Source of the DNA: a virus
Strand: one strand, 5' to 3'
Virus record (IMG/VR): IMGVR_UViG_3300009376_000098
Span: 1-21,455 of that record
DNA: 21,455 nt
The stretch's first letter is position 1. Each line of letters opens with the position of its first letter. This document shows positions 6,304 to 21,455 of this stretch, piece by piece. Under the pieces are notes generated by a model. It saw only the letters and a list, made by a program, of their open reading frames with translations, did no database searches and was not told the DNA's origin. The position numbers and the translations under genes were made by a program.

Positions 6304-7398
6304 TTAGGAAGTAGGATCAGTAATAGTAAAGCCCGGAGTTATTACACCATCGTTGAGGACAAGGGCTTTCTCGTAATCAACCTTATTTTTATTATGAGTA
6401 TTCTTAGCATCCCACTCAAATCCATTAGCTTGCCTCTCGTATAGAGAACTCTGTCGTCCTATAATACTAGTAGTTGTAGGAGCAGATTTATCTGTTTTCT
6501 CAGTTTGTGCGTATTCAGTAATCTCTTTCTGAGCTAAAACAGCTACTTCTCCTTCTGCTTTCTGGATAGAAACTTCAGCTAAAGATGTACCTGCTGTTCT
6601 GATATTAGTTACTTGATTAAGAACTACAGACTGTACTGTATACCCTGCTACATGAGGGTCAAAATTACGTAAAGAGATAACATCATTTTCAGTTAGATTC
6701 TGAATAGTAGTAAATGTGTAGGTATTATCAGGATCTTCGGCATACTCGATTTCCCAGATATACTGATTAATCTCTTCACCATTAGTGATTTTCTCACTAA
6801 TTAGCTTTTGCTCAGAAATGCGCAATTCAGCTTTAGTGGCAAGTGTTTTATCAATGATATCTGCCTCTATTTTTACAGTATTTGCGCTAATATTAAGAGC
6901 TTGTTTAAGTTCAGTGTCAGCTTGGTTATCTGCTAGAGTTGTTTGCTCTTCGAATAATAATTTTTGTTGATCCTTAGTAGCAGTATCTGAAACAATATTA
7001 AGAGCCTTTTTAAGCTCCGTAGCACCTTGATTAGTGGTTAAGGTTGTCTGAGCTGTTTTAAGGGCTGTATCGTTTGTAGATTGCGTATTACGTACTGTTG
7101 TACTAGAAACTACATCGAGAGCTTTCTTCTCTTCTGTAGTAGCTTGTTTATCTATTAACGCAGCCTGTTTATTAGCATTTTGTTCACCTAATGTAAACTG
7201 TACAGCATTCTGGATAGCAAACTGCATTGCTCCTAGGTAGACATTAGCGTAATCAGTACCAGTGATGCGACCTAGATCGAATTGATTCTTAAGCTGAGTA
7301 TTCACAGCTTCCATCAAATCATCAAAAGCACCGTCTCCAGTAACTACTCCGTCAGTTGTAGTTAAATTGGAAGTTACATCACTGATACTGATAGCCAT
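6304..7398 (-). CDS. Repeat-containing helical virion-module protein, 364 aa
   Basis: ATG at 7398 shares its A with the TAA of the preceding gene (TAATG); AGGGG lies 9 nt upstream, so translation is probably coupled. Residues 24-80 form an amphipathic helical region (DDLMEAVNTQLKNQFDLGRI, then ANVYLGAMQFAIQNAVQF). Residues 88-190 contain three imperfect repeats starting TEEKKALDVVS (88), TELKKALNIVS (127) and TELKQALNIS (162), giving a Gln/Thr/Lys-rich coiled-coil-like rod. Residues 205-265 look beta-rich (NQYIWEIEYAEDPDNTYTF), followed by another helical segment and a polar C-terminus. Similar capsid-proximal proteins occur in N4-like and related phages, where they are virion components, but I cannot name a defined role. 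Confidence 0.68.
   Translation of the reverse strand: MAISISDVTSNLTTTDGVVTGDGAFDDLMEAVNTQLKNQFDLGRITGTDYANVYLGAMQFAIQNAVQFTLGEQNANKQAALIDKQATTEEKKALDVVSSTTVRNTQSTNDTALKTAQTTLTTNQGATELKKALNIVSDTATKDQQKLLFEEQTTLADNQADTELKQALNISANTVKIEADIIDKTLATKAELRISEQKLISEKITNGEEINQYIWEIEYAEDPDNTYTFTTIQNLTENDVISLRNFDPHVAGYTVQSVVLNQVTNIRTAGTSLAEVSIQKAEGEVAVLAQKEITEYAQTEKTDKSAPTTTSIIGRQSSLYERQANGFEWDAKNTHNKNKVDYEKALVLNDGVITPGFTITDPTS
6820..7137 (-). repeat. Three in-frame repeats in the 364-aa protein
   Basis: Three imperfect repeats start at residues 88, 127 and 162, a spacing of 39 and 35 residues. Each opens with T-E-x-K-K/Q-A-L-(D/N)-(V/I) followed by a Ser/Ala-Asn-Thr stretch and a Gln/Lys/Asp helical filler. 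The third copy decays after about residue 190. The pattern suggests duplication of a helical rod segment, so length could differ between related phages. Confidence 0.6.
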
Positions 7399-7973
7399 TA
7401 AGTATTGCCCCTAGATTTTTGAGCTGCTGCTAAGTCTGCAAGTTCCTTCTCACTAAGCGGAGGAAGAACCTGTACGTTGTACATTTTAGCGATATAAGGC
7501 TCCATAGCTGTATCGCCATTAGGCATTTTCACTGATTTAAACTTCTGCATTTGAGCATTCTCAATTTGCTTATAGACAGCATTGGGTACATGCCACCCTT
7601 CTTCATTATTGAAAGGTACGAATTTTTTAATAGATCGTCCCTTATTAATCTTCGAACTACAAACTGTAAAAATCCCACCGGGAAGAGCAGCTTTGACAGG
7701 GTCATTAGGACTTACAATAATCCTAACCAACCTCATAGCTTCCTGCTCCCGAGAAAGTTTTTTCTTTTTAGGTGCAGTTGTAGTAACTTTCACTTCTTCT
7801 TTGACTTCTACGGTATCCGTAGCTTTTGCCATTTTTTTCTCCTCATACGTACCATCCATTACTGCTTGTAGAGTAGTTTTAAGTTTAGCTACTCCAGTTT
7901 TATGATGCATAGTAACTCCGTGAGATTTCAACTCTTCACGTAGATCTTCTACTTCCATACTATCAATGTCCAT
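7398..7973 (-). CDS. Capsid-adjacent conserved protein with HeH/SAP-like N-terminus, 191 aa
   Basis: ATG at 7973 has AAGGA 6 nt upstream. Residues 4-40 (SMEVEDLREELKSHGV, then KTGVAKLKTTLQ) match the helix-extended loop-helix pattern of HeH/SAP/LEM-like domains, usually nucleic-acid or protein binding. A Lys-rich linker follows (45-75, with PKKKKL). The C-terminal part (80-185) has MRLVRIIVSPNDPVK, GGIFTV, KKFVPFNNEEGWHVP and QVLPPLSEKELADLAAAQ. I recognise this as a pattern of proteins encoded just downstream of N4-gp56-type capsid genes, though no precise role is known to me. A head-decoration, head-completion or capsid-assembly factor is a plausible inference. It is separated from the capsid gene by a hairpin, which may lower its expression relative to capsid protein. 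Confidence 0.7.
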   Translation of the reverse strand: MDIDSMEVEDLREELKSHGVTMHHKTGVAKLKTTLQAVMDGTYEEKKMAKATDTVEVKEEVKVTTTAPKKKKLSREQEAMRLVRIIVSPNDPVKAALPGGIFTVCSSKINKGRSIKKFVPFNNEEGWHVPNAVYKQIENAQMQKFKSVKMPNGDTAMEPYIAKMYNVQVLPPLSEKELADLAAAQKSRGNT

Positions 7974-7998
7974 ACTAGTTCCTTATGTGTTAAGTAAT

Positions 7999-8026
7999 GC
8001 CCCCTCTGGCTTACGCCTTCGGGGGC
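7999..8026 (-). terminator. Structured hairpin after the capsid gene, putative partial terminator
   Basis: On the minus strand the RNA reads GCCCCC, GAA, GGC, GUAA, GCC, AGA, GGGGGC. The outer stem has 6 bp (7999-8004 with 8021-8026) and the inner stem 3 bp (8008-8010 with 8015-8017), capped by a GNRA-type GUAA tetraloop. The symmetric 3x3 internal loop GAA/AGA could form sheared G-A pairs. It lies in the 69-bp gap between the capsid gene and the next gene. The downstream sequence AUUACUUAA is not a clean U-run, so it may be a leaky terminator or a 3'-end stabiliser that sets capsid expression above downstream genes. Confidence 0.6.
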
Positions 8027-8042
8027 TAGATTAGCTAACTAC

Positions 8043-9209
8043 TTATACAGCAGTCAGGCAAGTCCAAACGATACCAAGACGTTCAGGACGCAATGCCATG
8101 AAGCCATAGTACCACTTGATGCTGTAGAAGCCCTTCTCACCATAAGGGTCGTTCAGGTCAGCAATGTCCTTACCCGGCTTCTTATGGTTGATTACGAACT
8201 TCACACTCTTACCATCAGTCTGGAAACCGATAGTAGTGAATGCACCATCACCAACAACAAGCATTGGATAGATGTCAGCACCGTTACTACCGTTACCAGC
8301 AGTATCAGCAGCAGAAGCACCACCAGCTTCGTCATACTGCATCTCAGGTACTACAACGATACGGAACTGACGAACAGAACCGATCTCACCGTTGAGGATA
8401 GTTCCTGCAGAAGCATACTTCTCTACTGGGACGAAAGCAGGATTGTTATTAGCATCCAGCATATCTTCCACAACAGGAATCAGCTCAGAACCGATGAACA
8501 TGACTCGACCACCAGCGATAGTCTTCGTATCAATCATACGAGAACCAGCAATAATCTTGGTCTTCTTAGGAGTCTTGTTATCATCCAGAGCAATAGATAG
8601 CTGACGCAGATCGTTATAAGTAACAACCTCATCTACTTCAGTCTTAGCAGTACCACCCATGTAGTAAGCAGTACCATTAGAAGTAGCCTCAGTGATCAAG
8701 TCAGCCTGAACCTCAGCCTCACTCAACTCATTAGCACCAACTACAGCTTCCTCAGTGATGTGAGACAACAGCTCAGCATCAGAATCAAAGTCCATAGACT
8801 CCTGAGTATACTCAGTGAAGAAACCACGCTTATACAGTTCACCTTCGATTTGGAGGCGAGTGAAACCAACACGGTTAACTCGACCACCATTCTCAGTTAG
8901 AGCTGGGATCTTAGCCTTGATAGTACCGGTATCTTTAGAAGAGCCGTAGATATTACCGTCAGCAATGGTAGCACCAGAAGCGTTAAGACCTTGGTCATTA
9001 ACATTTCGGTCATCAAGCAGTGGAACGTAAACGTCCTGCTTAATCTTCTTACCCATATGCTTAGGCATTGCACGAACATCTGCCAAAGGCATGAAGTACT
9101 GTTCATCACGAACAGCAATCAGCGCCTTCTTATGATAGTAATCGGTACGAGCCTGTGAGCCGATAGTAGAAGCACTACCACCTGCCGGATCATTATAAAT
9201 ATGTGCCAT
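8043..9209 (-). CDS. Major capsid protein, N4-gp56 family, 388 aa
   Basis: This is the shell-forming protein of the head. The family signature is clear: YYHKKALIAVRDEQYFMPLA (24-43), MPKHMGKKIKQDVYVPLLDD (48-67), NVNDQGLNASGATI (69-82), GGRVNRVGF (108-116), GFFTEYTQESMDFDSD (129-144), and a C-terminal block YPMLVVGDGAFTTIGF (314-329) followed by DPYGEKGFYSIKWYYGFMALRPE (split here: 354-363 and 364-376). The length fits full-length members. ATG at 9209 is preceded by a short GAGG-like ribosome site lying in a weak 6-bp hairpin. The gene is visibly more GC-rich than its neighbours (29 of 60 bases at 8101-8160 against 15 of 60 at 6661-6720) and uses codons such as AAG, ATC and CGT, consistent with selection for very high expression. 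Scaffold lies directly upstream. Confidence 0.95.
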   Translation of the reverse strand: MAHIYNDPAGGSASTIGSQARTDYYHKKALIAVRDEQYFMPLADVRAMPKHMGKKIKQDVYVPLLDDRNVNDQGLNASGATIADGNIYGSSKDTGTIKAKIPALTENGGRVNRVGFTRLQIEGELYKRGFFTEYTQESMDFDSDAELLSHITEEAVVGANELSEAEVQADLITEATSNGTAYYMGGTAKTEVDEVVTYNDLRQLSIALDDNKTPKKTKIIAGSRMIDTKTIAGGRVMFIGSELIPVVEDMLDANNNPAFVPVEKYASAGTILNGEIGSVRQFRIVVVPEMQYDEAGGASAADTAGNGSNGADIYPMLVVGDGAFTTIGFQTDGKSVKFVINHKKPGKDIADLNDPYGEKGFYSIKWYYGFMALRPERLGIVWTCLTAV

Positions 9210-9244
9210 TTTTAAAACCTCATAGTTTTACGATAAAAAAATGC

Positions 9245-10393
9245 CTAGGGTGCCGAGAACTTCTTCATAAACTCTTCATCAGAAAGTCCTAAGAAATCAT
9301 CACTAGATTCTTTCTTGGCCGGTGCCCTAGACTTAGTCGTAGCTGCAGCTTTTCGTTTTTGTTTAAGCTTAGCATCCGACTTAGCCTTTACATCACTCGA
9401 TACAGTTGAATCAGATTGTGGAGGTTCTTTCCCGTCCTGTATTAGTGCTCCTGTTTGAGCTAAGTATTCAGCGGCTTGTCTGTAGGCAATTACATCAGGT
9501 ACACCGTTCAATCTACCTAATGCCTTTTCCTTTTGTACAAGCTCATTGACCCTCTCAAAAACACCATTTTGCATGTGAGTATCGATAACCCCAATAATTC
9601 CTGGGTTATCAGAAACAATGTTCTTACTTTCAGCATCCCAATCTTTAGACATTACATCAATGGTTTTACTAAAAGTCTCACTATCTTTAATGGCATCTAA
9701 GGCTTGGTCAAGTTCATACTCCTTATCAGTTACACCATATTGGTTAGGGTGATACTCCACATCTTTATCAGTATCAATATCTAAAGGATCTACCCCACTT
9801 TCTTTAATAAGCTTAGCAACTGCAGCAGGATCTTTCTTAGAGAGATCAATGAGATTATTTAGTTTGTGTTCATCTAGCAAACCATTATTCTCAAGCATCT
9901 TTACCATTTTTAAATTAGGCTTCATTGAAGCCATCTTTTTCTGGTAATTAGCACCCATCTGCATTAGACGGATTGCATCCTCTGGACTGTCAACCTGCAT
10001 TTCAATGCCATTGGCTTTGAAAGGAGACATCACCTTTCTATACGCACTTTCGTAGTCTACTTCTTTAGTTTCCGGGGTATCCCCCTCTGTGTCAGATTCA
10101 GTATCACTACTAGTATCAAGAGACTCTGGCTCGTTACTATCAGTTTCAGGTTCGTGCTCCGTCTGGGTATCCCCGTCTGGTTGGCCTACTTCTTCATCTT
10201 CAGCTTCTTGCTCAGGTTGCTCCTGTGCTCCACTATCCACTTCCTCTTCGGAAGCTTCAACATCTTCAGTAGATTCTTCATCTACTGTGTCAGTATTCTC
10301 TTCTTGTTCATCAACTAATTCTTCCTCAAAAGAAGAAGCAGGTTGATTTAAAAATTCTTCATCAGATAGTTCTAAGGCATTAGCTCCACTCAT
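9245..10393 (-). CDS. Capsid assembly scaffold-like protein, 382 aa
   Basis: ATG at 10393 overlaps the TGA of the preceding gene (ATGA), with GAGGAG about 8 nt upstream. The gene sits between portal and capsid genes, the usual place for a scaffold. Residues about 22-112 are extremely acidic (Glu/Asp/Ser/Thr). Residues 113-330 are mostly helical, and 336-362 form a basic tail (KAKSDAKLKQKRKAAATTK). A basic tail that binds the capsid's acidic inner face is known from P22-type scaffolds; here it is inferred. The motif LELSDEEFLNQP near the N-terminus (8-19) recurs at the C-terminus as LGLSDEEFMKKF (368-379). No protease triad is visible, so a fused protease-scaffold is unlikely. Confidence is high for the scaffold role by position and composition, lower for details. 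Confidence 0.82.
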   Translation of the reverse strand: MSGANALELSDEEFLNQPASSFEEELVDEQEENTDTVDEESTEDVEASEEEVDSGAQEQPEQEAEDEEVGQPDGDTQTEHEPETDSNEPESLDTSSDTESDTEGDTPETKEVDYESAYRKVMSPFKANGIEMQVDSPEDAIRLMQMGANYQKKMASMKPNLKMVKMLENNGLLDEHKLNNLIDLSKKDPAAVAKLIKESGVDPLDIDTDKDVEYHPNQYGVTDKEYELDQALDAIKDSETFSKTIDVMSKDWDAESKNIVSDNPGIIGVIDTHMQNGVFERVNELVQKEKALGRLNGVPDVIAYRQAAEYLAQTGALIQDGKEPPQSDSTVSSDVKAKSDAKLKQKRKAAATTKSRAPAKKESSDDFLGLSDEEFMKKFSAP

Positions 10394-10725
10394 GAGTTAA
10401 GCTCCTCTGCCAAAATCTCTTCTCTAGTATCCTCAGCCTCTTTAAGAGATTCTTCCATCTGATCACCTTTAGTAATCTGCCAATCCATATATGCACTAAA
10501 CGAGCTGATAGCATACAAGTCACGATCAATATTTGAGTTAATCTGATCTGTAATATTAGGCGCACTTTTTAAAAGTACAAGTCGAAGAGACTCATTTTTA
10601 ATATACCCCTCTAGGAATACTTTCTGGAAGTCAGCATTATTCTTTAGACGCAATAATGCATCACGTAGCCCTACTTCTTTTTTAGCTAATTCAATGCTCA
10701 CTTCAACCTCTTGCATTTCGCTCAT
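10390..10725 (-). CDS. Conserved small head-module protein between portal and scaffold, 111 aa
   Basis: ATG at 10725 has AAGGA about 8 nt upstream; the TGA stop overlaps the scaffold start. It is a small, charged, helical protein with the stretch LRDALLRLKNNADFQKVFLE (20-39) followed by GYIKNESLRLVLLKSAP. I have seen this pattern in unnamed proteins next to portal genes in many tailed phages. The C-terminal third is acidic (EESLKEAEDTREEILAEELN). There is no signal peptide or membrane segment. Its position between portal and scaffold corresponds to the gene 58 slot of N4-like phages. It may be a portal- or scaffold-interacting assembly factor, but this is inferred from position only. Confidence 0.75.
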   Translation of the reverse strand: MSEMQEVEVSIELAKKEVGLRDALLRLKNNADFQKVFLEGYIKNESLRLVLLKSAPNITDQINSNIDRDLYAISSFSAYMDWQITKGDQMEESLKEAEDTREEILAEELNS

Positions 10726-10772
10726 TACTAAAGTCCTTATGTGGTTGGTTGGTAAAAACTATATTACTACTG

Positions 10773-12800
10773 TTATATATTTAACGAATCTAAGGCTCTA
10801 TTGTCAAGTCCTTGTAATCGGTCAAATTCTTTTTGCTCCATAGTTTGTGCATGTGCCAACTTCATTTGCTCTTCTTTATTGGCATCAGCTACTCCAGACT
10901 CTTTAGTAACAAAGTCTAGATCATTAAGGTCTGATTTACTATGAAGATCCCTAGTCTTAGCTTGTTTAAGGGCAATATCTGCTTCATTCTCCTTAGCCTT
11001 AGCACTCTCATTAGCAACTTGAGCTTCTAATAAGGCAAGTTCCAATTGTGCTTTTTGCTGCATCATTGGATCTGGTTGGGGTTGATATTCCTCAATACGC
11101 TTAGCTAATTCAGGCATTTTACGTAGTTTAGCAATGTCAGCTAGAATCATTTTGGACATTGCTGGATCCATACTGTTACCCATAGTCTGTAGCATAAAGC
11201 TCAGTTCTTGGGCTTTATCGTTATCAGCTTCTGCAGTAGAGATATTTAACTTAATATCATACTTACCACTTAAGTCTTCACGATTAATCTCCACAAACTG
11301 TTCGTTAGTAACCCGAATGATTTCAGAATCATCTAAGAATTCTGAGTTCATGGACATTACTTTACGGCCAATCTTAATAATTCCATCAGCCAATCTACGA
11401 AGAATACCTAACTCTCGTTTACTTGTAGCATCTAGAGCAGAACGAATACCTGTAGCTGTATTACCTAAAGCTTGGCCTGAAATACCAGAACTAAATGCTT
11501 TAACCCCTGTAAGGCTTTCTGCATCTTCATTCTGCAATCCCAACATAGTAAGAGCACTTTGAGGAATCTCTGGATATGCACCCATATGGAAAGCCTGACG
11601 AGGATCTACGCTACTATTAAACTTGTAGTCATCACCATTCTCAAATTTACGAGCATTAATAACATCTAGAGCATCCTTACGAATACCCTGTTGACCATTA
11701 GCACTTCTACCTAAGATATCAATCATACCTCTGGTAACAGCACCAATAATCTTTTGGTTATCTTCTAAGAGATACCCATCAGGTTGCCCGTATACTTCCT
11801 TACGTACTGGTAGATACTGTTCTAGAATGAATGGAAGCTCTTTATCTGGGAATGGAGTCTCTTCTAAACGAATAAGAGTATTACCTATCCATGTAGCTAC
11901 AAAAGGCTCTACTTCGCCAGTACCGTGAATATCCCAATACCCCCAATACTCATAAGCAATAAGCTTCTTACGAGGTTCATCTTTAAACTCAAAGCTACTA
12001 TCACTATCATTTACTTTATGATCTGGGTCAGCTAACACACCATTGTCGTTAACATTAACTAAGTTTAAGTTCTTATACCTAGTATCCTTCTTGAGATCAC
12101 TCATAGATGTCTCAAAGCTGTAGATAATAAATTCAGCTTTAGAAATATCACCATTACAGGTAGGGTCAATAACTACATTGTTATAGTCACATACTTCAAG
12201 AGTAGGTTGATTCTTGATAGTAACCATTTTAGTTACCATCTCTACTCCAGTTTGTACTTGCTGCATTACCTCAGCATTTTGTTGAGGATCGAATACAGCT
12301 TTAGTCTCTACAGTAGGAACTTCAACTTCTCGTTCCTCTTCTTCAAATTCCCAACCGACTTTTACGATTACAGTACCTTCATCAACTGCAGTACGGACAT
12401 ACTCATCAATGAACTTAGTCTTATCGATCTTACAGTTAAACTGGTAGTTAAGAACTAAACCATTCTGTTCTGCAGCTTTCTTATCTTCAAAGGTTACTGG
12501 GGATGTATTGAAGAGGTCATCAGTAGACAGGAAAGGCTCTGATAAAGCTGCATAACGCCATTCAGCTTGCTTACGAATGACTTTAGGAACAATCTTAGAT
12601 CGTCCCTTTTTAGTCTTAATCTTTTGAGTACCTTTAAGATTATCTAACCAATTATCTACATCAGTGATGTGGGAATCATGGAAAGGTTTAGCTTCTTGGT
12701 AGTCCTGCTTAAGATCCAGTAGCTTAGGTGGGTTATCCCAATCTACTAACTTAGTTGATTCAGGTGCTTCTAAATCTAAATTTGTTTCATTAGTAGTCAT
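10773..12800 (-). CDS. Portal protein, 675 aa
   Basis: The portal is the dodecameric ring at the capsid vertex through which DNA is packaged and ejected. Supporting features: an N-terminal head-binding region with WRYAALSEPFLSTDDLF (81-97) and KAAEQNGLVLNYQFN (108-122); a beta region with DPTCNGDISKAEFIIYSFE (212-230); WGYWDIHGTGEVEPFVATWI (286-305); PFILEQYLPVRKEVYG (323-338); a helical crown with GVKAFSSGISGQALGNTATG (432-451) and a wing/stem helix (459-483). After a Pro-rich hinge (573-578) comes a long Gln/Ala/Lys coiled-coil (580-660), a barrel-like extension that podoviral portals often carry. The length fits podoviral portals. The ATG at 12800 lacks a strong ribosome site (only GGTAAG), and the leader carries a 10-bp direct repeat. 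Recognition is by pattern and gene order. Confidence 0.88.
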   Translation of the reverse strand: MTTNETNLDLEAPESTKLVDWDNPPKLLDLKQDYQEAKPFHDSHITDVDNWLDNLKGTQKIKTKKGRSKIVPKVIRKQAEWRYAALSEPFLSTDDLFNTSPVTFEDKKAAEQNGLVLNYQFNCKIDKTKFIDEYVRTAVDEGTVIVKVGWEFEEEEREVEVPTVETKAVFDPQQNAEVMQQVQTGVEMVTKMVTIKNQPTLEVCDYNNVVIDPTCNGDISKAEFIIYSFETSMSDLKKDTRYKNLNLVNVNDNGVLADPDHKVNDSDSSFEFKDEPRKKLIAYEYWGYWDIHGTGEVEPFVATWIGNTLIRLEETPFPDKELPFILEQYLPVRKEVYGQPDGYLLEDNQKIIGAVTRGMIDILGRSANGQQGIRKDALDVINARKFENGDDYKFNSSVDPRQAFHMGAYPEIPQSALTMLGLQNEDAESLTGVKAFSSGISGQALGNTATGIRSALDATSKRELGILRRLADGIIKIGRKVMSMNSEFLDDSEIIRVTNEQFVEINREDLSGKYDIKLNISTAEADNDKAQELSFMLQTMGNSMDPAMSKMILADIAKLRKMPELAKRIEEYQPQPDPMMQQKAQLELALLEAQVANESAKAKENEADIALKQAKTRDLHSKSDLNDLDFVTKESGVADANKEEQMKLAHAQTMEQKEFDRLQGLDNRALDSLNI

Positions 12801-12819
12801 AATACTTTGCTTACCATAT

Positions 12820-12951
12820 CTAGTTAATACTTTGTAAGTGCTTTCTTGATTTTAACACAGTAAATTTACGCTTTGCATTATTAGTCATATACAATAGATT
12901 ATTGTAGCGGATAAGGATATCCTCGCCAGTTACTTGTTTTATTTCATACAT
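12820..12951 (-). CDS. Possible small protein, 43 aa
   Basis: ATG at 12951 overlaps the end of the preceding gene by 8 nt, and the frame stays open for 43 codons to TAG at 12820-12822. The product starts MYEIKQVTGEDILIRY, has NNLLYMTNN in the middle, and ends in a basic stretch (KRKFTVLKSRKHLQSIN). It would fill an otherwise empty 143-bp gap before the portal gene, and the overlap is typical of this operon. There is only a weak purine-rich site (GAAAG) before the ATG. It could be a real small protein, or simply the leader of the portal gene. No family is recognised. Confidence 0.5.
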   Translation of the reverse strand: MYEIKQVTGEDILIRYNNLLYMTNNAKRKFTVLKSRKHLQSIN

Positions 12952-13420
12952 CGTCTTTCACATACTCCGTCTTATATAACAGCTCTTCTCCTGAATAAGT
13001 ATAACTCACTAGTCCTTTAGATAGCTCTAACACCTCATCATCCTCTAAGCAACTCCCATCAGGAGCACTGTATAAGGTATACCTATCCTCTCCTACAAGA
13101 ACTCCAGTAGCAACTATACAATAGTCTCTACTCTTTCCTAATGGATTTCCCCGAGAGTACCCTTTCCGACCTACTATCTCTCCAAGCGTATTATCTATTC
13201 TCACAGAGTACAAGTAATAATCTTCTTCAAAACAATCAGGTTTACAATCCCCAGGATAGTATAAGTAATACACATCTCCTTGCTTCCCTATCTTAGCAGG
13301 AGTTGGAACTTCATGATTAATCTCTTCAAATAGTTGAGAGAACTTCTCAAAGTTATCATAACGGTTGTACTCTGTTTTTCTTAAAACTCCATCAGTATAT
13401 AATTTGAGACCATTACTCAT
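12944..13420 (-). CDS. Unknown protein, 158 aa
   Basis: ATG at 13420 overlaps the TGA of the preceding gene (ATGA) and has GGAAG 5 nt upstream, so it is firmly part of the operon. The product is rich in Tyr and acidic residues, with beta-like segments (DVYYLYYPGD, EDYYLYSVRI, DRYTLYSAPD) and four Cys residues (CKPDC at about 79-83, then CIV and SCLEDD). The paired CxxxC could bind metal or form a disulphide, but no known zinc fold is evident. It lies between tail-surface genes and the portal, a place where podoviruses encode connector, fibre-attachment or chaperone proteins. I do not recognise the family. Confidence 0.62.
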   Translation of the reverse strand: MSNGLKLYTDGVLRKTEYNRYDNFEKFSQLFEEINHEVPTPAKIGKQGDVYYLYYPGDCKPDCFEEDYYLYSVRIDNTLGEIVGRKGYSRGNPLGKSRDYCIVATGVLVGEDRYTLYSAPDGSCLEDDEVLELSKGLVSYTYSGEELLYKTEYVKDDV

Positions 13421-13788
13421 TTCAACTTCCTTGATAAATCAATACTCGTAGGACTTACACTCCTAACATACAATCTTTTAGCAATATCGGGAAGGCTATC
13501 TATACACCTTGCTGCTACTATCTCTTGAGTGCTCTCTCTAATACTATTGACAGGGGTGGCGAGTAACTCTTCATCCTTCTCAATAATAATAGTCTTAGAA
13601 GGTGTCATCGCTTCCTCTGTATTATCAATAAGACTATTAAGAGGCGCTAACTCTTCTGGCAAAGGAGTATCTGAAAGGATAATGCTCTCCTGGTCAATTT
13701 TTACATCGACAACTACTTTGTTATCCATCTCTCTTTTCTCAATCTTACTTCTTATTATTGGAATTTCTTTTGCTGTATTAAATAACAT
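13417..13788 (-). CDS. Unknown small protein, 123 aa
   Basis: I choose ATG at 13788 (MLFNTAKEIP). It has AAGGA just upstream (13793-13797), and this sits immediately behind the stop of the preceding gene (13799). The longest frame would begin with a TTG at 13824 inside that gene with no ribosome site. The product is polar, rich in Ile, Glu, Lys and Pro, with a KIDQESIILSDTPLPEE stretch and a basic C-terminus (RSVSPTSIDLSRKLK). It has one Cys, no membrane segment and no obvious catalytic motif. Its stop overlaps the next start (ATGA), suggesting coupled translation with the 158-aa gene. Function unknown; a small assembly factor or fibre-associated protein is possible. Confidence 0.62.
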   Translation of the reverse strand: MLFNTAKEIPIIRSKIEKREMDNKVVVDVKIDQESIILSDTPLPEELAPLNSLIDNTEEAMTPSKTIIIEKDEELLATPVNSIRESTQEIVAARCIDSLPDIAKRLYVRSVSPTSIDLSRKLK

Positions 13789-13798
13789 ATCATCCTTC

Positions 13799-14779
13799 TT
13801 AATCGAAATCAGTTGAAGTAGCAATCATCGGGTAAACTGCCCTATATCCTGCTATATCGTTCTCCATTGGTAAATCTGTAGTAATGTCGATTGCCCAATG
13901 CCCTGAACTACTAAATAAGGTTCCTTCTTCTGTTTCACTAGAGCTTAAAGAGACATCGTCTCTAATAGGTATCCATCCACACCTAATTCCTGTAGGAGTT
14001 AAATGCATTCCTGCTCGATAGTAGACTCCATATTTGGCTATGGTCTCATAAACTACATCTCCCTGCCAAAGCCATTCAACCCAACTCCCACAATCACAAT
14101 GTCTATGACTGAAAGATTGAATTACCCCTGCTTGAGGTGTGGAATCAAAAGAGAACATATCACCGTAAGGATTTTCACGAAGAAACTCGTTATAAGTAGT
14201 ACTGGAGTTAAAGTCGTAAGTGCGTTTGTTTTTAATTCCAGACTCAGTAGTAACATACCCAGGGTCTACTCCTGGAATCTCTGAACCTCCATCAGTAGGA
14301 ATGCTCTTTGGATAAATATAAGTACTTCCAGGTTCTAAGGCTAAGGGTTTGAAACGTGTATCTAAAGAGATCTCATTATTTTCACCTGTAAATTTTAAAC
14401 CATAACCCTGAGAGGACTCGTCCCATATAGGAAGAGAAGTTGTGTGTATCTCCGCGAATATATAGAGGTCAGGGGCTACTGTATTAACGCCCTCACATAT
14501 AACATCGAACTCCCAGTTCCCCGAGACTAGCACTGATCCTAGGAGCGCATGCATCTTATTAGCATCATTAGGCTTAATGAAAACCTGAAACAATACATCA
14601 GAAGGAATACTTGTGGTCATCCTAAAGTTATACCTAGTACTACCTGAATAGTCTGAAAACACAACACCACCGCCTGTTAAATTTACTGATGTTAGTTTAG
14701 CCATTAAATGGGGGTACTTAATATCTGAAGATAAGAATAAAGAACCGAACCTAGACCTAACTGTCATTCCACTTGACAT
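13799..14779 (-). CDS. Beta-rich tail protein with YGL...DTRFKPLAL motif, 326 aa
   Basis: ATG at 14779 has AGGAGAG 4 nt upstream, overlapping the previous stop. The protein is predominantly beta, without signal peptide or membrane segment. Residues 126-148 contain YGLKF and then SLDTRFKPLAL. This resembles the 'YGL-x(n)-D-S/T-R' motif of small tail-tip proteins encoded near fibre genes of many tailed phages. Further on are an unusual SHRHCDCGSWVEWLWQGD segment (224-241), with His/Cys close together that could bind a metal, and IRCGWIPI (265-272). It lies directly downstream of a 535-aa protein that carries a related RRKPLAL motif. A minor tail or adhesion component is the best inference; the exact role is not recognisable. 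Confidence 0.68.
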   Translation of the reverse strand: MSSGMTVRSRFGSLFLSSDIKYPHLMAKLTSVNLTGGGVVFSDYSGSTRYNFRMTTSIPSDVLFQVFIKPNDANKMHALLGSVLVSGNWEFDVICEGVNTVAPDLYIFAEIHTTSLPIWDESSQGYGLKFTGENNEISLDTRFKPLALEPGSTYIYPKSIPTDGGSEIPGVDPGYVTTESGIKNKRTYDFNSSTTYNEFLRENPYGDMFSFDSTPQAGVIQSFSHRHCDCGSWVEWLWQGDVVYETIAKYGVYYRAGMHLTPTGIRCGWIPIRDDVSLSSSETEEGTLFSSSGHWAIDITTDLPMENDIAGYRAVYPMIATSTDFD

Positions 14780-14780
14780 A

Positions 14781-16388
14781 CTACTCTCCTGTAATTACTA
14801 ATCTAGTGTTTGAACTATAATCAGGGTGAGGAGATAGAGTTACAGTTGAAGTACTAACATCCCAGTCTACAGTGTGTAGCTCTTTTCTAGAAAAATCAGG
14901 AGACTCTCCTACAAAAGATGTATGAAAATATAAGCGAGAGAAGCCTGTTAGATTTAAGACTTTAGAGTTTGTGTTATTAGCAGTTGCCTCGAACCAATCG
15001 ATGAAATTAGTAGCTCCTTTCTCAGAATCTACCATAACTCTCTCAGAGTTTCCGCTCCAAAGCATTACACCATGCCCTATAGCAGTACCTTTTTTCACAT
15101 ACTCCACAAAGAAAAGCAACCCATTTACGGAACCATCCACTGCAGTCAAGTAGGCGGAAGACCCTAACCCCCCGCTTAAACTTCCTGATACTATATAGAA
15201 GTTATCGGTACTAACATCACTGTAGGGGCAATTTATAGTAATAGTGTCAGAGTATTCACCAAAAGAATTACTAAAGTAACTACCTGACACTACTCTCCAA
15301 AGAATATCGTAATCATTTGAAGATGTTCTATCAGCTACAGGAGAGACGTATTCAGCTTCTCCTGAGAAGTTTGAGATAACTATTACGTGTTGTATCGTAG
15401 ACATTCCATCAGAAACTTCTATCATCGCCTCTATCTTCTCTTCTGAAGTTGCCCTACAAACAAAGACCTCTTGGTCCAAATAAGCCTCACCTAAAACAGG
15501 TGTTATGCTTAATATATTCAAAGTAGAATCTGAATAAGATGTAAACAAGTTTGTTATTGATTCTTTAGAGAGACTAATTATAGAGTAGTTAAAAGAAGTA
15601 TTTGTAAGTGAAAGTGAAGTAACTCCCGTCTCACTTACAGGTTTAAGAGCTGGCGCTTGCCAGTCTCCAAAAAGCTGCTCATTGTTGATGAGAGCTAGCG
15701 GCTTTCTCCTACCTCTAATAAAATAACCGTCTACCTTTTCATAATAGAACTGATAAAAAGCTTCGTTATCACACGCAAGTTCATACCAATAATTAGTTGC
15801 AGTACTATTCATATAGATACTTCTAGGAAGGATCCCCCTTCTGGCAAAGCTTTCTAAATAAGTTGTATTAATAGTAGGAGTGTAATTATCTACATCAGAA
15901 TTCCAAGCGCTGTTTACATTACCGTAAAAGTATTGTATTTCCCTAGTGCCATTATTGTATCTAATCCTGCTAGACAGTAACTCATGCGGCACAACGCCTG
16001 TTATATTTGTAGGAGGGTAAACGCTGGAACCTATTATAGTAGTAAAAGCCTTAATAACAAAAGTAGCTGTTGCTACTATAGTGTCCCCTATATACCTCAT
16101 TTCGTAATAAGGAATTTCTTTAGAGTTTACACCTGCTTCTATTCGCTCTAGGTCATATTCTAAATCTATCCTGATTAAGTCTAATTCAACAGTAGTATCA
16201 AAGTCTAACCACGCACCTGGCTCGGCGGTAATAGTAGGATTATATGTATATTCATTGTCAAGAGAAACACCTTTTGGTAGCACACCTGCCTTAAGGTTTA
16301 GTTTATATAACTCTGTGCAACTACCATCTGAGTTAACATCGCCAAAGGAAAACTCCACCTTATGATTGCTGTTAAAGTCTATATCCAT
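14781..16388 (-). CDS. Beta-rich tail-surface protein, 535 aa
   Basis: ATG at 16388 has AGGA 7 nt upstream; the stop lies 1 nt before the next gene. It is rich in Ser, Thr, Asn, Tyr and Val, with predicted beta structure throughout and no membrane segment. The region 205-233 (NEAFYQFYYEKVDGYF, then RRKPLAL) resembles the motif in the next protein. The middle part (about 250-345) looks like one or two Ig-like sandwiches (TSLSLTNTSFNYSIISLS; MIEVSDGMSTIQHVIVISN). The C-terminal part (about 360-535) is a further beta domain with repeated short strands. Lying between the S8 protease and another tail protein, it is probably a structural tail or fibre-associated protein that could bind the host surface. 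No enzymatic motif is seen. Confidence 0.66.
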   Translation of the reverse strand: MDIDFNSNHKVEFSFGDVNSDGSCTELYKLNLKAGVLPKGVSLDNEYTYNPTITAEPGAWLDFDTTVELDLIRIDLEYDLERIEAGVNSKEIPYYEMRYIGDTIVATATFVIKAFTTIIGSSVYPPTNITGVVPHELLSSRIRYNNGTREIQYFYGNVNSAWNSDVDNYTPTINTTYLESFARRGILPRSIYMNSTATNYWYELACDNEAFYQFYYEKVDGYFIRGRRKPLALINNEQLFGDWQAPALKPVSETGVTSLSLTNTSFNYSIISLSKESITNLFTSYSDSTLNILSITPVLGEAYLDQEVFVCRATSEEKIEAMIEVSDGMSTIQHVIVISNFSGEAEYVSPVADRTSSNDYDILWRVVSGSYFSNSFGEYSDTITINCPYSDVSTDNFYIVSGSLSGGLGSSAYLTAVDGSVNGLLFFVEYVKKGTAIGHGVMLWSGNSERVMVDSEKGATNFIDWFEATANNTNSKVLNLTGFSRLYFHTSFVGESPDFSRKELHTVDWDVSTSTVTLSPHPDYSSNTRLVITGE

Positions 16389-16396
16389 AAGAAGTC

Positions 16397-18190
16397 CTAC
16401 TGCTTTATGCTAAAACCAACGTTCGTAGTTGTTACGTAAGGGTTGTAAGCCATTAAATTAGAAGTAGAAACATCATCATGATAAGTTAAATCTTTAGTCA
16501 AAAGAGGTGGTGTTGCAGAGCTAAACTCAGACCTATCTACACAAACCACATACCAATTCGTAGCTCCTGTTCCATCTAAATCAAAGTACCAACCACCCCT
16601 AACCGCTTCTCCTTCAATAGATTTAACTATATAGTATCTACCCCCGTAGATTGGTCCATTTGGGGGGAGTCGTCTATGTAGCGTGAAGTCTAAGGCTATA
16701 TAGTGATTCGGAAGATAATAACCTGCACCGGTAAAGTTTCCTGCAGCATCATAGTCTCGATAACCATAAGTTCTTTCACTGGTATTTACTGCTACACAAC
16801 TATTGCCTGCGCTATTCTGATAAGTAACGAACGGGTCTATAGTATGCTCATAGCTCCCTATGTTGTCTATTACCCCCGATGTCGCATTAGTAACTAACCA
16901 CTTAGCCACCTCTTGAGAAGTACAAGTAGAAGAGATACCGCTAGCAGTAGGCACTGCCTTGTCCTGTAAGAATAAAGCAATTAAACCAACTACTATCGGT
17001 GACGAGTAACTACTCCCACTTATATATCGCCACCAATGGGTACCATTTAACCAACTTGCCGCATCTAATGAAGCATTGGCGCTAGGCACTACAAGACTTT
17101 CACCTGGAGCTTGTAACATCAACGCCTTTCCATAAGCAGCCCATTCAGCAATAGTGTCTGTTTTAGTAGATACCCCTATAGTAAATGAAGGGAGTCCAAG
17201 TTGATTGTCTCCTTCCGTTCTATTCCAAGCAGTAGTAGTATAGCCTCCATTAAAAGTTCCAAATGGGGCATGATGTCCTACCCCTTTATAGAAGTCTCCA
17301 TCATCTGTATTACCCGCTGACTTAACAACAGGGATACCGTAACTCTCTTGAATATCCATAAACAAATGTTTAAAGGTGTAGTTGTCTGCAGTAGCAGGAT
17401 CACCCTCGTGAGGAACTACATTATTAATAGGGTTAAAGGAAGAACCTATTGAGAAGTTTATAACTGCATTTCTTCTTGGGGATTGCCTAAGGTGATGATT
17501 TACAATAGCCTCTAGCCCTAATTCTATATGAGGAGTAGAAATACTGCCTATATTATCGCTACAAGGTACTGTTACTATACTAGCACCAGGCGCAACTCCC
17601 ATACTAGTACCAGCAGCACACATGGCAACAAACAATCCGTGCCGATGGCTACTCTCATTAGCAATGGTTAGCTCACTGTTATCTGGATAGAACTCACCAT
17701 CAGGGGGTGTATACCAATCAGCATGTGTATCATTAGGCAGCCCATCATTAACATCAGTAACTCTACCTACTATTTCAGGATGGTCTTGTATTAAGGTAGT
17801 ATCTAAGATATAGATATTAACATCAGCACCATCCCTAGAGCTTGTATAACTTCCTGAAGCTTCTTTGTTTCCTCTACTATGTACAGCATTTAAATGCCAT
17901 ATAAGCGAAGGATCTGCAGGCGTGCTAGGGTATCCTACTGTATTAGTCCAATTAGTACTTACTTCTTCTGAGTCAGATTCTACAGGCTCATCTGAATTAA
18001 ATGCACAATTAGAGAATTCTACACCATCATCCTGAGAAACAGTATAGTCACCATCATAGTCGTAAGGATTGTCTACATCTATATGTACTAAGTATTTCCA
18101 TATTTTAAATCTATGAGTAACTGATTCAGTTAATTTGTTTCTCTCAAGAAACGCATCAACGTCTTCATTAATCTTAATACTATAAATCAT
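16397..18190 (-). CDS. Subtilisin-family (S8) serine protease in the tail-fibre operon, 597 aa
   Basis: ATG at 18190 overlaps the TGA of the gpJ-like gene (ATGA) with no good ribosome site, implying coupled translation. The S8 catalytic set is complete and in order: Asp130 in VNIYILDTTLIQDHPE, His184 in HRHGLFVAMCAAG, followed by MGVAPGASIVTVP as in subtilases, oxyanion Asn294 in VVKSAGNTDDGD, and Ser394 in GSSYSSPIVVGLIAL. The usual HGTHVA and GTSMASP are varied to HGLFVA and GSSYSSP. Residues 1-80 (YSIKINEDVDAFLERNKL; FKIWKYLVHID) could be an I9-like propeptide, followed by an acidic linker; the WHLNAVHSRG segment opens the catalytic domain. Residues about 465-597 form an extra beta domain that may anchor it. 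No signal peptide, so it is more likely virion-borne than secreted. The substrate (host surface protein or phage protein) is unknown. Confidence 0.9.
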   Translation of the reverse strand: MIYSIKINEDVDAFLERNKLTESVTHRFKIWKYLVHIDVDNPYDYDGDYTVSQDDGVEFSNCAFNSDEPVESDSEEVSTNWTNTVGYPSTPADPSLIWHLNAVHSRGNKEASGSYTSSRDGADVNIYILDTTLIQDHPEIVGRVTDVNDGLPNDTHADWYTPPDGEFYPDNSELTIANESSHRHGLFVAMCAAGTSMGVAPGASIVTVPCSDNIGSISTPHIELGLEAIVNHHLRQSPRRNAVINFSIGSSFNPINNVVPHEGDPATADNYTFKHLFMDIQESYGIPVVKSAGNTDDGDFYKGVGHHAPFGTFNGGYTTTAWNRTEGDNQLGLPSFTIGVSTKTDTIAEWAAYGKALMLQAPGESLVVPSANASLDAASWLNGTHWWRYISGSSYSSPIVVGLIALFLQDKAVPTASGISSTCTSQEVAKWLVTNATSGVIDNIGSYEHTIDPFVTYQNSAGNSCVAVNTSERTYGYRDYDAAGNFTGAGYYLPNHYIALDFTLHRRLPPNGPIYGGRYYIVKSIEGEAVRGGWYFDLDGTGATNWYVVCVDRSEFSSATPPLLTKDLTYHDDVSTSNLMAYNPYVTTTNVGFSIKQ

Positions 18191-21100
18191 GAAAGTAAGT
18201 TACCAATCCTAACCCTCTCAATACCATTACTGAAAACAGAGATGTGGTCGCTAGAAATGTCTAACCTGTTAGAAGCATTGGAGTTAGATGTTCCAATCAA
18301 AGGACTCCAATAAGAGGCGTTAGGGGGTTCTACATCTGTATGAGTACTATTACAAACATAAATATTTCCATTTACAAACACCTGAACTCCAGGTGTATAC
18401 TCAGTATCTGATGACCAAGCCGCTCCCCCTGGGGGAGAAACTGAAATAATGTGAGTATTTAACGATTCAGAGTCTAGTCTATTTACATTGATACTACCTG
18501 TAGTAATATTACCACCGTTAATAGTTGTAGTATCCTCAGAATATAGTGAGGTTGGTAATGCACCTACAGTACCTGCATTAACCGCATTTGTACCTGTTAC
18601 AACTATATGTGTTGAATCAATAGAAGCAGAGTTTATATGGTCGCCTGTAATCTCATCAGCACCTATATGATCAGCACCAATACTTTCAGCAACAATAGAA
18701 GCAGCATTCATAGAACCATCTAAAACTAATGCACCCTGTATACCTACTACAGAAGTATTTGCAGCTACCCATGAACCTCCTGCTGTATTACCACAAGTAG
18801 TTTCATTTAAAGCAGTATTTGCTACCCCATTAACATAACAAGTACCTGTTTCACCTCCTGTACGTACAATGAAAGGAATTACATGAGGTTCATTAGTACC
18901 TGTAATTGCAAAACTATCAGCAGCTACTAAGAAAGTACTAGACGCTTCTGCCCATACTTTACCAGTACCTGTGCAATCTGTTTGTGCAATACTTGTGTCT
19001 ATTATTCCATCTACCCAACACACACTGTCACTACTAGATAGACCAAAGCCACTTACATTACCATTATTATCAATCTTAACTGAGTACTCTGCTTCTAACC
19101 CATTAATAGATGTAGCTTGCTCACTGATAGTAGTAGTGTGCTCTCCTACTGTTGTGCTAACAGTATCTGTACGTTTAGCTAAAGCACCCATCCCCTCCCA
19201 CTGAAGAGTCCAAGTTTCATCTTGGTTATCTAAGGATGTAATTGTTCCTGTGCAATCGGCTTCTTTGTAACTATTTAGGTATGTACCTACTTTAGTGTCA
19301 TCTGTTAATGTAGATGCAGATATCTTACATATACCCTTCTGTTCAATAATCTTGGTATCTACACTAGCTAATGTAGCCACTGAAAGTAATACCCAATCAG
19401 TACCGTTGTATCTATAAACCTCATCATCCTTATCTGTAATAACCCATAAATCACTTATCTCAGGTTGTATAGGAGCAACACAATCATCATCTGAAGTAAT
19501 AGATGAATCTACTTCCCCTAAGACTGTACAAGTAGCTGTTGCGCTATCCCAAATAGCAGAACCTGGGGGAGTAGCAAAGGTATTAGTATTTTCATCATAC
19601 TCACCACCAGGTTGATAGAATATATAAACAGTTCTATCACTTAGAGCTAAAATATCTGCTGAGTATCTTGATGCTAAATCCCATACACTACCTGTCCAAG
19701 TATACATTTCACCTTGGTTATATGTAGTACTACCATCAATAACATTATCAGTAGGTATCCATAAATCATTAGCAAGTAAAGGTTGTGATGTACCAGCAGG
19801 AACAGTTTCTCCGCCATAAATAGTACGTTTATTATCTACTAACTCAGATAAAGCAGTTGTTATGTCAGCTTTAATAGCCCATTTATAATCGTAATTATCG
19901 CCATTATCGATATTAACTGTTTTTGAGTATTCATAATAACTACCTTTACTATGAGTTACTACAGGAGGGTTCGCAGTATTATAAATATCAGCAGTACACA
20001 ACCATAAATCACCAATTTTCTTATCTAAAATTAAATCAGAAGATATATTTATACTATCTACATAAGGCAGAGTAGCTTGTGCGTAAGTCTGAATCTTATT
20101 ATCTATTTGCGCCTGTAAATTCTCATCTAAAGCTTCAATTAGGTCGTGATATATTGTTGCAACAACAAACACAGGATGTGTAGTAATTGTACCATCAGCA
20201 GCATATACAGTTTCTACGGTACACCTATATATTTCTTCTGCCCTATAAGCTATTGATGAACCGTATGTACCACAGGGAACTACATCTCCAGAACTATCAG
20301 CAGTACATATAGTAGCAATAGGTATCCATAGGTCATTAATCTTAATAGTAAGATTGCCTTGTGCATCTGTATCCTTAGGAACTCCTGGGGTAGTATAAAT
20401 TGTACGTTTACCATCAGTTAGATCAGCTAATGCTGCTACATTAGAAGACCCTTCAATTTCCACCCACCCTTGTGTTACAGGAGTAGTATCTAGGTTACTA
20501 TATCTAAAGGTAGTTACAACACCAGCAGCATTAGTTTCAATATATAAATCACCTTCTACCATTCCAGTCTGTGTAGTACGATCACTACCAGAGAAGACGT
20601 GCACCATGTTATTAGTAGTACCAGTAATATAACTAACTAGGTTAGTTCCATCGATTACAGCATCATCTAAAGCTGTTTCACCTGTAAGAATATCTGTAAT
20701 AGCAGCATCAGCGTTATAAGCCTTAATAAAAGATATACCTAAAGCATTTCCGGGAGCAGTCCTCCAACTTAGAGTACCAGTACTACTACCATCATCAGCT
20801 TCATACCTATAGATAGCTGTAACAGTTAGTGGTGTAGCTTGTGAGGTATCAATCCATAAATCCCCGAAATTCATACCTGCTACAGGTTCGGTAATCTGGA
20901 AGAATCCCCTAATTTGGCCATCCGCTACTTCTTGGGTATCAACAAGAGATTGAACTGCGTCTATTGTTTCTTTATCTGTTACCGCTAACCAAGCAGGGGG
21001 TACTTGTGACGTATCCCAAACATAACGTTGACTATCATCTGAGTCTATCCAAGTATCACCACTAACCAAAGCATCACCATTAGATTTAGTAGTAGGAGCA

Positions 21101-21455
21101 GTAGCTTGGTAAAAGCTAGAGTTTATATTTGTACGTAATGAGCTAAATATAGTTGAGTTATAGATATCCTCTTGTAAATCATCTAGTACTTTCCCCGGAT
21201 CTTGGGATGTTTGTGCAAATTTACCTGAAGTACTAAACCAATTTCCAGTTACATCATTCTTATTTCTAAATCTAATCCAGTAATAGACTGCAGCATCATT
21301 ACCTAACGAGTGACTGTATACAGCAGCTTGCGTAGTATCTAAATAAGAAGCTGTCTCTAGATTATCTACAGTATTAACCCATATTTCAGTTACATTATGG
21401 CAAGTGTAATTAGTACCCTCCCAGCTTAAAATAATAGTTGTGAATGCCCCTGTAA
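18187..21455 (-). CDS. gpJ-like central tail fibre / host-specificity protein, C-terminal 1089 aa (5' end outside window)
   Basis: The frame is open without stop from the window edge to TGA at 18187. An in-frame TTG at 21069 is not a likely start, because coding sequence continues upstream. The upstream part ends a fibronectin-III-like domain (AAVYYWIRFRNKNDVTGNWF, about 21300-21230). Then come seven beta repeats (residues 4-560 counted from 21069). Next is a DUF1983-like gpJ C-terminal domain: TVSTTVGEHTTTI (637-649), AEYSVKIDNNGNVSGFGL (660-677), STFLVAADSFAI (711-722), PFIV, then VGIQGALVLDGSMNAASI. Repeated SIGADHIGADEITGDHI follows. A CBM5/12-like module lies at 884-923 (WSSDTEYTPGVQVFVNG, then YVC and YWSPL), and the end is RVRIGNLLS. 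gpJ proteins bind the host receptor. A J-like fibre beside podovirus-type head genes is unusual. Confidence 0.88.
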   Translation of the reverse strand, partial: TGAFTTIILSWEGTNYTCHNVTEIWVNTVDNLETASYLDTTQAAVYSHSLGNDAAVYYWIRFRNKNDVTGNWFSTSGKFAQTSQDPGKVLDDLQEDIYNSTIFSSLRTNINSSFYQATAPTTKSNGDALVSGDTWIDSDDSQRYVWDTSQVPPAWLAVTDKETIDAVQSLVDTQEVADGQIRGFFQITEPVAGMNFGDLWIDTSQATPLTVTAIYRYEADDGSSTGTLSWRTAPGNALGISFIKAYNADAAITDILTGETALDDAVIDGTNLVSYITGTTNNMVHVFSGSDRTTQTGMVEGDLYIETNAAGVVTTFRYSNLDTTPVTQGWVEIEGSSNVAALADLTDGKRTIYTTPGVPKDTDAQGNLTIKINDLWIPIATICTADSSGDVVPCGTYGSSIAYRAEEIYRCTVETVYAADGTITTHPVFVVATIYHDLIEALDENLQAQIDNKIQTYAQATLPYVDSINISSDLILDKKIGDLWLCTADIYNTANPPVVTHSKGSYYEYSKTVNIDNGDNYDYKWAIKADITTALSELVDNKRTIYGGETVPAGTSQPLLANDLWIPTDNVIDGSTTYNQGEMYTWTGSVWDLASRYSADILALSDRTVYIFYQPGGEYDENTNTFATPPGSAIWDSATATCTVLGEVDSSITSDDDCVAPIQPEISDLWVITDKDDEVYRYNGTDWVLLSVATLASVDTKIIEQKGICKISASTLTDDTKVGTYLNSYKEADCTGTITSLDNQDETWTLQWEGMGALAKRTDTVSTTVGEHTTTISEQATSINGLEAEYSVKIDNNGNVSGFGLSSSDSVCWVDGIIDTSIAQTDCTGTGKVWAEASSTFLVAADSFAITGTNEPHVIPFIVRTGGETGTCYVNGVANTALNETTCGNTAGGSWVAANTSVVGIQGALVLDGSMNAASIVAESIGADHIGADEITGDHINSASIDSTHIVVTGTNAVNAGTVGALPTSLYSEDTTTINGGNITTGSINVNRLDSESLNTHIISVSPPGGAAWSSDTEYTPGVQVFVNGNIYVCNSTHTDVEPPNASYWSPLIGTSNSNASNRLDISSDHISVFSNGIERVRIGNLLS
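18301..18420 (-). other. CBM5/12-like carbohydrate-binding module in the gpJ C-terminus
   Basis: Residues 884-923 counted from 21069 show AWSSDTEYTPGVQVFVNG, then IYVCNSTHTDVEPPNASYW and SPL. The pattern W-x(4-6)-Y-x2-G-x2-V-x3-G-x-(I/V)-Y-x-C-x(4)-H-x4-P-P-x3-Y-W fits family 5/12 chitin-binding modules found in many phage tail proteins. It lies between the helical SIGADHIGADEITGDHI region and the terminal RVRIG strand, so it could be exposed near the fibre tip and bind surface glycan. Assigned by pattern only. Confidence 0.6.
19390..21060 (-). repeat. Seven 'GDLW' beta repeats in the gpJ-like fibre
   Basis: Copies begin at residues 4, 69, 173, 245, 353, 434 and 539 counted from 21069. The core is (G/N/S)-D-(L/T)-(W/Y)-(I/L/V), followed after a variable loop by a Tyr-x-Tyr/Trp strand (for example VYRYNGTDWV). 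Copies 4 and 6 share a longer unit in which KRTIY precedes NDLWIP by about 20 residues (KRTIY at 221 and 414). Loop lengths vary greatly. Repeats of this kind are common in tail-tip proteins, where they probably form stacked beta modules along the fibre. Confidence 0.75.

Follow-up and report, generated by a model that had tools for sequence, protein, structure and literature searches.

A gene for an apparent S8 subtilase embedded in a phage tail-fibre cassette raises the question of whether the encoded protein is a competent protease and, if so, whether it acts on the surface of the host, on the proteins of the phage itself or after lysis. The DNA analyzed here (the window, 21,455 nucleotides) is a 21.4-kb viral contig which, on the basis of its gene content, is part of an N4-like (Schitoviridae) phage, with the portal serving as the anchor of this assignment. 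The order of genes from the portal to the virion RNA polymerase (vRNAP) position is the same as in the Salmonella phage FSL SP-058 (Schitoviridae). The gene at the vRNAP position itself (3-2036) is cut by the contig end and assigned by position only, its N-terminal 678 aa having no sequence match in the searched regions of two Schitoviridae. Upstream of the portal the window encodes, in order, a truncated tail fibre, the S8 protein and proteins of 535, 326, 135 and 158 aa. As a separate observation, another N4-like contig (L166) carries a ketoacyl-synthase-like gene (1838-2851; PF00109 above cutoff) just upstream of its portal region, next to a gene for a small protein that is acyl carrier protein-like by eye and has no Pfam match.

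Features of the window discussed in the text, with strand and the evidence for each assignment
Feature	Coordinates	Strand	Evidence
Major head protein	8043..9209	-	phrog_1357 E 2e-121; 54% identity to FSL SP-058
Portal, SU10/N4-like	10773..12800	-	Pfam SU10_portal E 6e-151; 57% identity to FSL SP-058
Approximate breakpoint upstream of portal gene, beyond which L163 genes differ	12834	.	L163 comparison
326-aa cassette protein	13799..14779	-	relatives not found apart from L002
535-aa cassette protein	14781..16388	-	relatives undetected except in L002
S8 (proteinase K-like) protease, 597 aa	16397..18190	-	ORF, Pfam, PHROG, fold
C-terminal domain, residues 456-597	16400..16825	-	L002 comparison
Peptidase_S8 catalytic domain, residues 122-443	16862..17827	-	Pfam range; structure alignment spans 100-443
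Nucleophile Ser394 codon	17009..17011	-	homologue alignment; PDB alignment
Oxyanion-hole Asn294 codon	17309..17311	-	homologue alignment
Catalytic His184 codon	17639..17641	-	homologue alignment
Catalytic Asp130 codon	17801..17803	-	homologue alignment
N-terminal region, residues 1-95, possible prodomain and acidic linker	17906..18190	-	inferred from position before mature-like start 'IWHLNAV'
ATGA overlap, fibre-gene stop/S8 start	18187..18190	-	sequence
Tail fibre gene, >=1088 aa, 5' end off contig, repeated 'GDLWI/NDLWI' units	18187..21455	-	PHROG tail fiber families, best E 7e-22

An earlier note on this DNA had delimited the protease gene correctly; it lies on the minus strand, opening with an ATG at 18190 and ending at 16397, and the plus-strand translation of the same segment is riddled with stops. 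The note had further read a complete S8 triad and oxyanion asparagine in the protein, and had named a profile search and structure prediction as ways of checking it. The protein matches the Pfam Peptidase_S8 model (PF00082) with an E-value of 2.1e-16 and 60.6 bits against a cutoff of 21.8, over the catalytic range given in the table, and the PHROG family phrog_3677 ('protease') with an E-value of 4e-19 over residues 77-412, while its sequence matches in the PDB are keratinase, aqualysin and proteinase K-like enzymes. In an alignment of viral and bacterial homologues D130, H184, N294 and S394 fall in the catalytic columns, exactly at the positions proposed, and these columns are invariant in every homologue that covers the position (D 51/51, H 52/52, N 53/53, S 53/53), although certain motif neighbours in the window protein are non-canonical (HRHGLFVA, GSSYSSP). 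An AF2 model, built from a domain-trimmed homologue alignment, has a pLDDT of 85-95 in the catalytic blocks of the core, and its core (residues 100-443) aligns with proteinase K-like and subtilisin structures with a VIA-align Z of about 26 (26.6) and an rmsd of about 3 Å over about 245 residues; the best matches of the model in the viral structure library (BFVD) are proteins of Agrobacterium phage Atu_ph07 and Prochlorococcus phage MED4-213. A chance S8 assignment of this 597-aa frame is excluded. With the profile, the order of the triad together with the oxyanion Asn, and the modeled subtilisin fold all in agreement, the protein is an intact S8 subtilase by sequence and model, and is predicted to be proteolytic.

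The regions flanking the catalytic domain are more elusive. The absence of a signal peptide, as previously noted, holds, the most hydrophobic 15-residue window within residues 1-75 averaging just 0.53 on the Kyte-Doolittle scale. The N-terminal region has no match to the Pfam I9 inhibitor domain, and its hhalign comparisons with phage and bacterial pro-regions were not significant; one viral locus (L079) did seem to match the viral pro-region profile, but L079 is itself a member of that profile, and the match was disregarded. Similarly, no relatives of the C-terminal domain turned up when it was compared with the phage collection, with sequences from the PDB and with the proteins of the cassette. 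AF2 confidence is low over the N-terminal 95 residues, and pLDDT is about 30 across the C-terminal 140 residues. Since neither region is resolved in the model, the propeptide and the extra C-terminal beta domain that had been proposed were not confirmed and are treated here as suggestions.

Comparison with an independent 6.4-kb contig (L002), which is 98% identical to the window and has the same cassette order, offers a different view of the protease. Over S8 residues 231-597 the two differ by eight replacements and one inserted codon, with no synonymous change, and all nine codon changes lie at residues 466-555 (16795-16526), residues 231-465 (235 codons compared) being identical. Clustering of this kind would arise by chance with a probability of about 8e-5; the portal genes of the same pair, with five synonymous changes and no replacements in 582 codons, contrast with the S8 gene at a Fisher P of 0.0008, both figures being those of two sequences. 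This comparison shows that, between these two sequences and within residues 231-597, variation is confined to the C-terminal domain and the catalytic domain is unchanged. A diversity-generating retroelement was considered as the source of the variation and set aside: no reverse transcriptase was found among the window genes searched, and bases other than adenine are substituted as well. The 326-aa gene also differs between the two contigs, with V-E-W at residues 234-236 (14072-14080) becoming Y-E-Y in L002 through four clustered substitutions in two codons, inside a small hotspot at 14042-14135.

The setting of the gene is that of a fibre cassette. The S8 gene and the upstream fibre gene do overlap translationally by ATGA, the 535-aa frame starts 8 nt after the S8 stop, and in GC content and GC3 the S8 gene resembles its neighbours. 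The fibre had been described as gpJ-like, of which the PHROG tail fiber matches sustain a tail fibre and go no further than that family level. It contains seven repeats ending in GDLWI/NDLWI-like motifs, and its residues 1012-1042 give a sub-threshold match to the carbohydrate-binding CBM_5_12 model. The 535-aa and 326-aa proteins have no match among the phage records and no confident PHROG, Pfam or NCBIfam model. In searches of IMG/VR for close relatives, the S8 and 535-aa proteins recovered only L002 and the fibre none; close relatives of the S8 protein were likewise absent from GTDB genomes.

Evidence regarding the mobility of this cassette comes from a third contig (L163), which is 99.7% identical to the window over 7234-12834 (5.6 kb, including the portal and head genes), but whose positions 1-1386 are unrelated to 12834-21455 of the window; the similarity stops abruptly a short way upstream of where the portal gene begins. 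In its unrelated part L163 encodes a protein of 287 aa that weakly matches a phage family with no assigned function. The S8-bearing cassette therefore looks exchangeable, with the evidence for exchange being this one, possibly chimeric, contig that ends short of any S8 position; the arrangement in the window itself is backed by two contigs (L162 and L002). Moreover, S8 was found in none of the 79 portal-bearing loci searched; 18 of these reach 4 kb or more upstream of the portal, and 10 reach 6 kb or more. From the difference in L163 and this absence, we conclude that the subtilase is part of an accessory, probably exchanged, adsorption cassette outside the conserved head/tail core.

Tail proteases had been described as uncommon in phages, and a survey for S8 genes beside tail genes qualifies this view. 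A direct tblastn search with the S8 protein recovered Atu_ph07, Sinorhizobium phage Phosso and cyanomyoviruses, a broader query found S8 relatives in 50 phage records, and an alignment query found them in at least 105 IMG/VR contigs, from which 80 loci were kept; those complete enough to judge encode large multidomain proteins with the S8 domain near the N-terminus. The S8 genes lie beside or among tail or baseplate genes in P-HM1, MED4-213, S-BM3, S-T4, S-CREM1, Atu_ph07, Phosso and Mallos, that is, in modules of cyanomyoviruses, Agrobacterium/Sinorhizobium jumbo phages and a Xanthomonas phage, with the triad intact, and the catalytic residues were intact in the phage S8 relatives checked. 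Two cyanophage S8 proteins (L006 8263-13761 and L009 8737-16683) have cupredoxin-like segments beside the S8 domain together with many Ig-like repeats, and that of P-HM1 gives a sub-threshold copper-bind match. In Bacillus phage Goe3, Moorella phage MTATph1, Staphylococcus phage PSU4 and the archaeal virus vir520 the S8 genes are situated elsewhere than in tail modules; hence, the fold alone leaves the role unfixed. Nevertheless, given their presence in the tail modules of several unrelated phages, subtilases of tail modules form a kind that recurs and has been annotated before but has apparently not been studied. The window protein adds one to it and is the first that we found in an N4-like phage. 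Literature searches, with partial coverage, brought up no experimental work on phage tail subtilases.

Proteomics of Atu_ph07 provides a further clue. Its virion proteins cluster in CDS 31-76, 170-215 and 284-329 (PMC6102473), and by gene count between the anchors gp288 (tail fibre), gp292 (ClpA) and gp327 (tail fibre) the S8 gene is gp329. That the last virion cluster ends exactly on the S8 gene implies, short of proof, that gp329 was detected in the virion.

Delivery on the virion had been proposed for the window protease, and a virion or adsorption role indeed gains support from a cassette that differs in a near-identical genome, a variable C-terminal domain, and homologues in tail modules, one of which closes a virion cluster defined by mass spectrometry. 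We therefore favor, with a probability of roughly 55%, the reading that it is a catalytically competent proteinase K-like subtilase of the adsorption cassette, associated with the fibre and cutting host surface protein, its virion location and substrate being inferred. Under this proposal, the protease would be assembled onto or beside the tail fibre, with its variable C-terminal domain docking it to the fibre or the target. Upon host contact it might cut surface or capsule-associated proteins, and the cleavage would expose a receptor or clear a path, as a proteolytic counterpart of the tailspike depolymerase. Proteinase K-like enzymes need calcium, and the cytoplasm of the host could be spared either through low cytoplasmic calcium or through the N-terminal 95-residue region acting as a zymogen domain, both of which are candidate safeguards.

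The main rival, which we regard as rather unlikely, is a processing protease whose substrate during assembly would be the fibre, the 535-aa protein, the 326-aa protein or just the protease itself, with no need for action on the host. The coupling to the fibre gene and the co-linearity with two cassette proteins lacking known homologues fit such a role, and a cassette-specific processing enzyme would likewise be swapped along with its cassette. However, no S8 is seen in relatives that share the portal family, homologues in other phages adjoin unrelated fibre proteins, and a varying C-terminal domain joined to a fixed catalytic domain resembles target binding more than recognition of a co-inherited substrate. 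Less probable still is an enzyme that builds up in the cell and, once freed at lysis, breaks down extracellular or biofilm protein without being stably attached to virions. Release by lysis needs no signal peptide, the close structural relatives are secreted extracellular proteinases, and in Mallos the S8 gene directly precedes the lysis genes; yet the window gene sits not among lysis genes but in the middle of the fibre cassette, coupled to the fibre gene. Its Atu_ph07 homologue borders a cluster of virion proteins, and in many homologues the S8 part is joined to a long structural protein of Ig type. An inert or purely structural scaffold with a subtilase fold, to which the non-canonical motif neighbours might point, is highly improbable, as a scaffold would not need the four catalytic positions, and these are preserved both in the window protein and in every viral homologue that aligns there.

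Extending the adsorption reading beyond this locus, we tentatively raise the possibility of a general, undescribed class of virion-borne subtilases, in which a proteinase K-like enzyme would have entered the exchangeable adsorption cassette independently in several unrelated phage families, acting there as a protein depolymerase whose targeting domain evolves rapidly. To our knowledge, phage tail enzymes are known almost only as glycan- or peptidoglycan-degrading; if true, such subtilases would be the protein equivalent of the polysaccharide-degrading tailspikes. A protease travelling in a host-range cassette would make possible a direct attack on proteinaceous surface layers, pili or matrix, and a tail-protease role would explain the annotated but unstudied 'extracellular serine proteinase' genes of jumbo phages and marine cyanophages. 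The single active-site serine offers a testable handle on this role.

Among known systems, the window protein is like the proteinase K-like subtilases (ProteinT 8c4z, keratinase 5wsl, aqualysin I 4dzt and proteinase K 2prk) in fold, triad, oxyanion Asn and order of motifs, but unlike them it lacks a signal peptide, is encoded in a phage tail cassette, and has its own N-terminal region and a 140-aa C-terminal domain without relatives. Close to it in size, in stand-alone S8 architecture and in tail-fibre/baseplate setting are two proteins of phrog_9158, a family absent among the PHROG matches listed for the window protein: S-T4 gp070 (588 aa), which adjoins Hep_Hag and tail fibre genes, and S-CREM1_165 (559 aa), which has intact catalytic residues, is flanked by baseplate genes and has a further match to a PHROG tail fiber family (E 4e-10). 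They come, however, from T4-like cyanomyoviruses, their N- and C-terminal regions cannot be aligned with those of the window protein, and the core alignment consists of short stretches only, with S-T4 about 30% identical. Xanthomonas phage Mallos (Mesyanzhinovviridae) gp45, and a similar gene of Variovorax phage V45iii that adjoins a Mallos-type tail gene, likewise encode a stand-alone S8 protein with intact residues, and gp45 overlaps its upstream tail gene (gp44) by 4 nt, just like the window gene; it differs in being 400 aa long, in lacking a large C-terminal domain and in being followed by lysis genes. Finally, Atu_ph07 gp329 and the Phosso protein (phrog_3677), P-HM1 PHM1_104 and the S-BM3 protein have an N-terminal S8 domain with intact residues and are encoded beside tail fibre or neck genes, and the Atu_ph07/Phosso and giant cyanophage S8-Ig proteins are the best phage and BFVD matches of the window protein. 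These are multidomain proteins of 1,251-2,648 aa with Ig-like repeats, whereas the window encodes the protease as a protein apart from the other structural parts.
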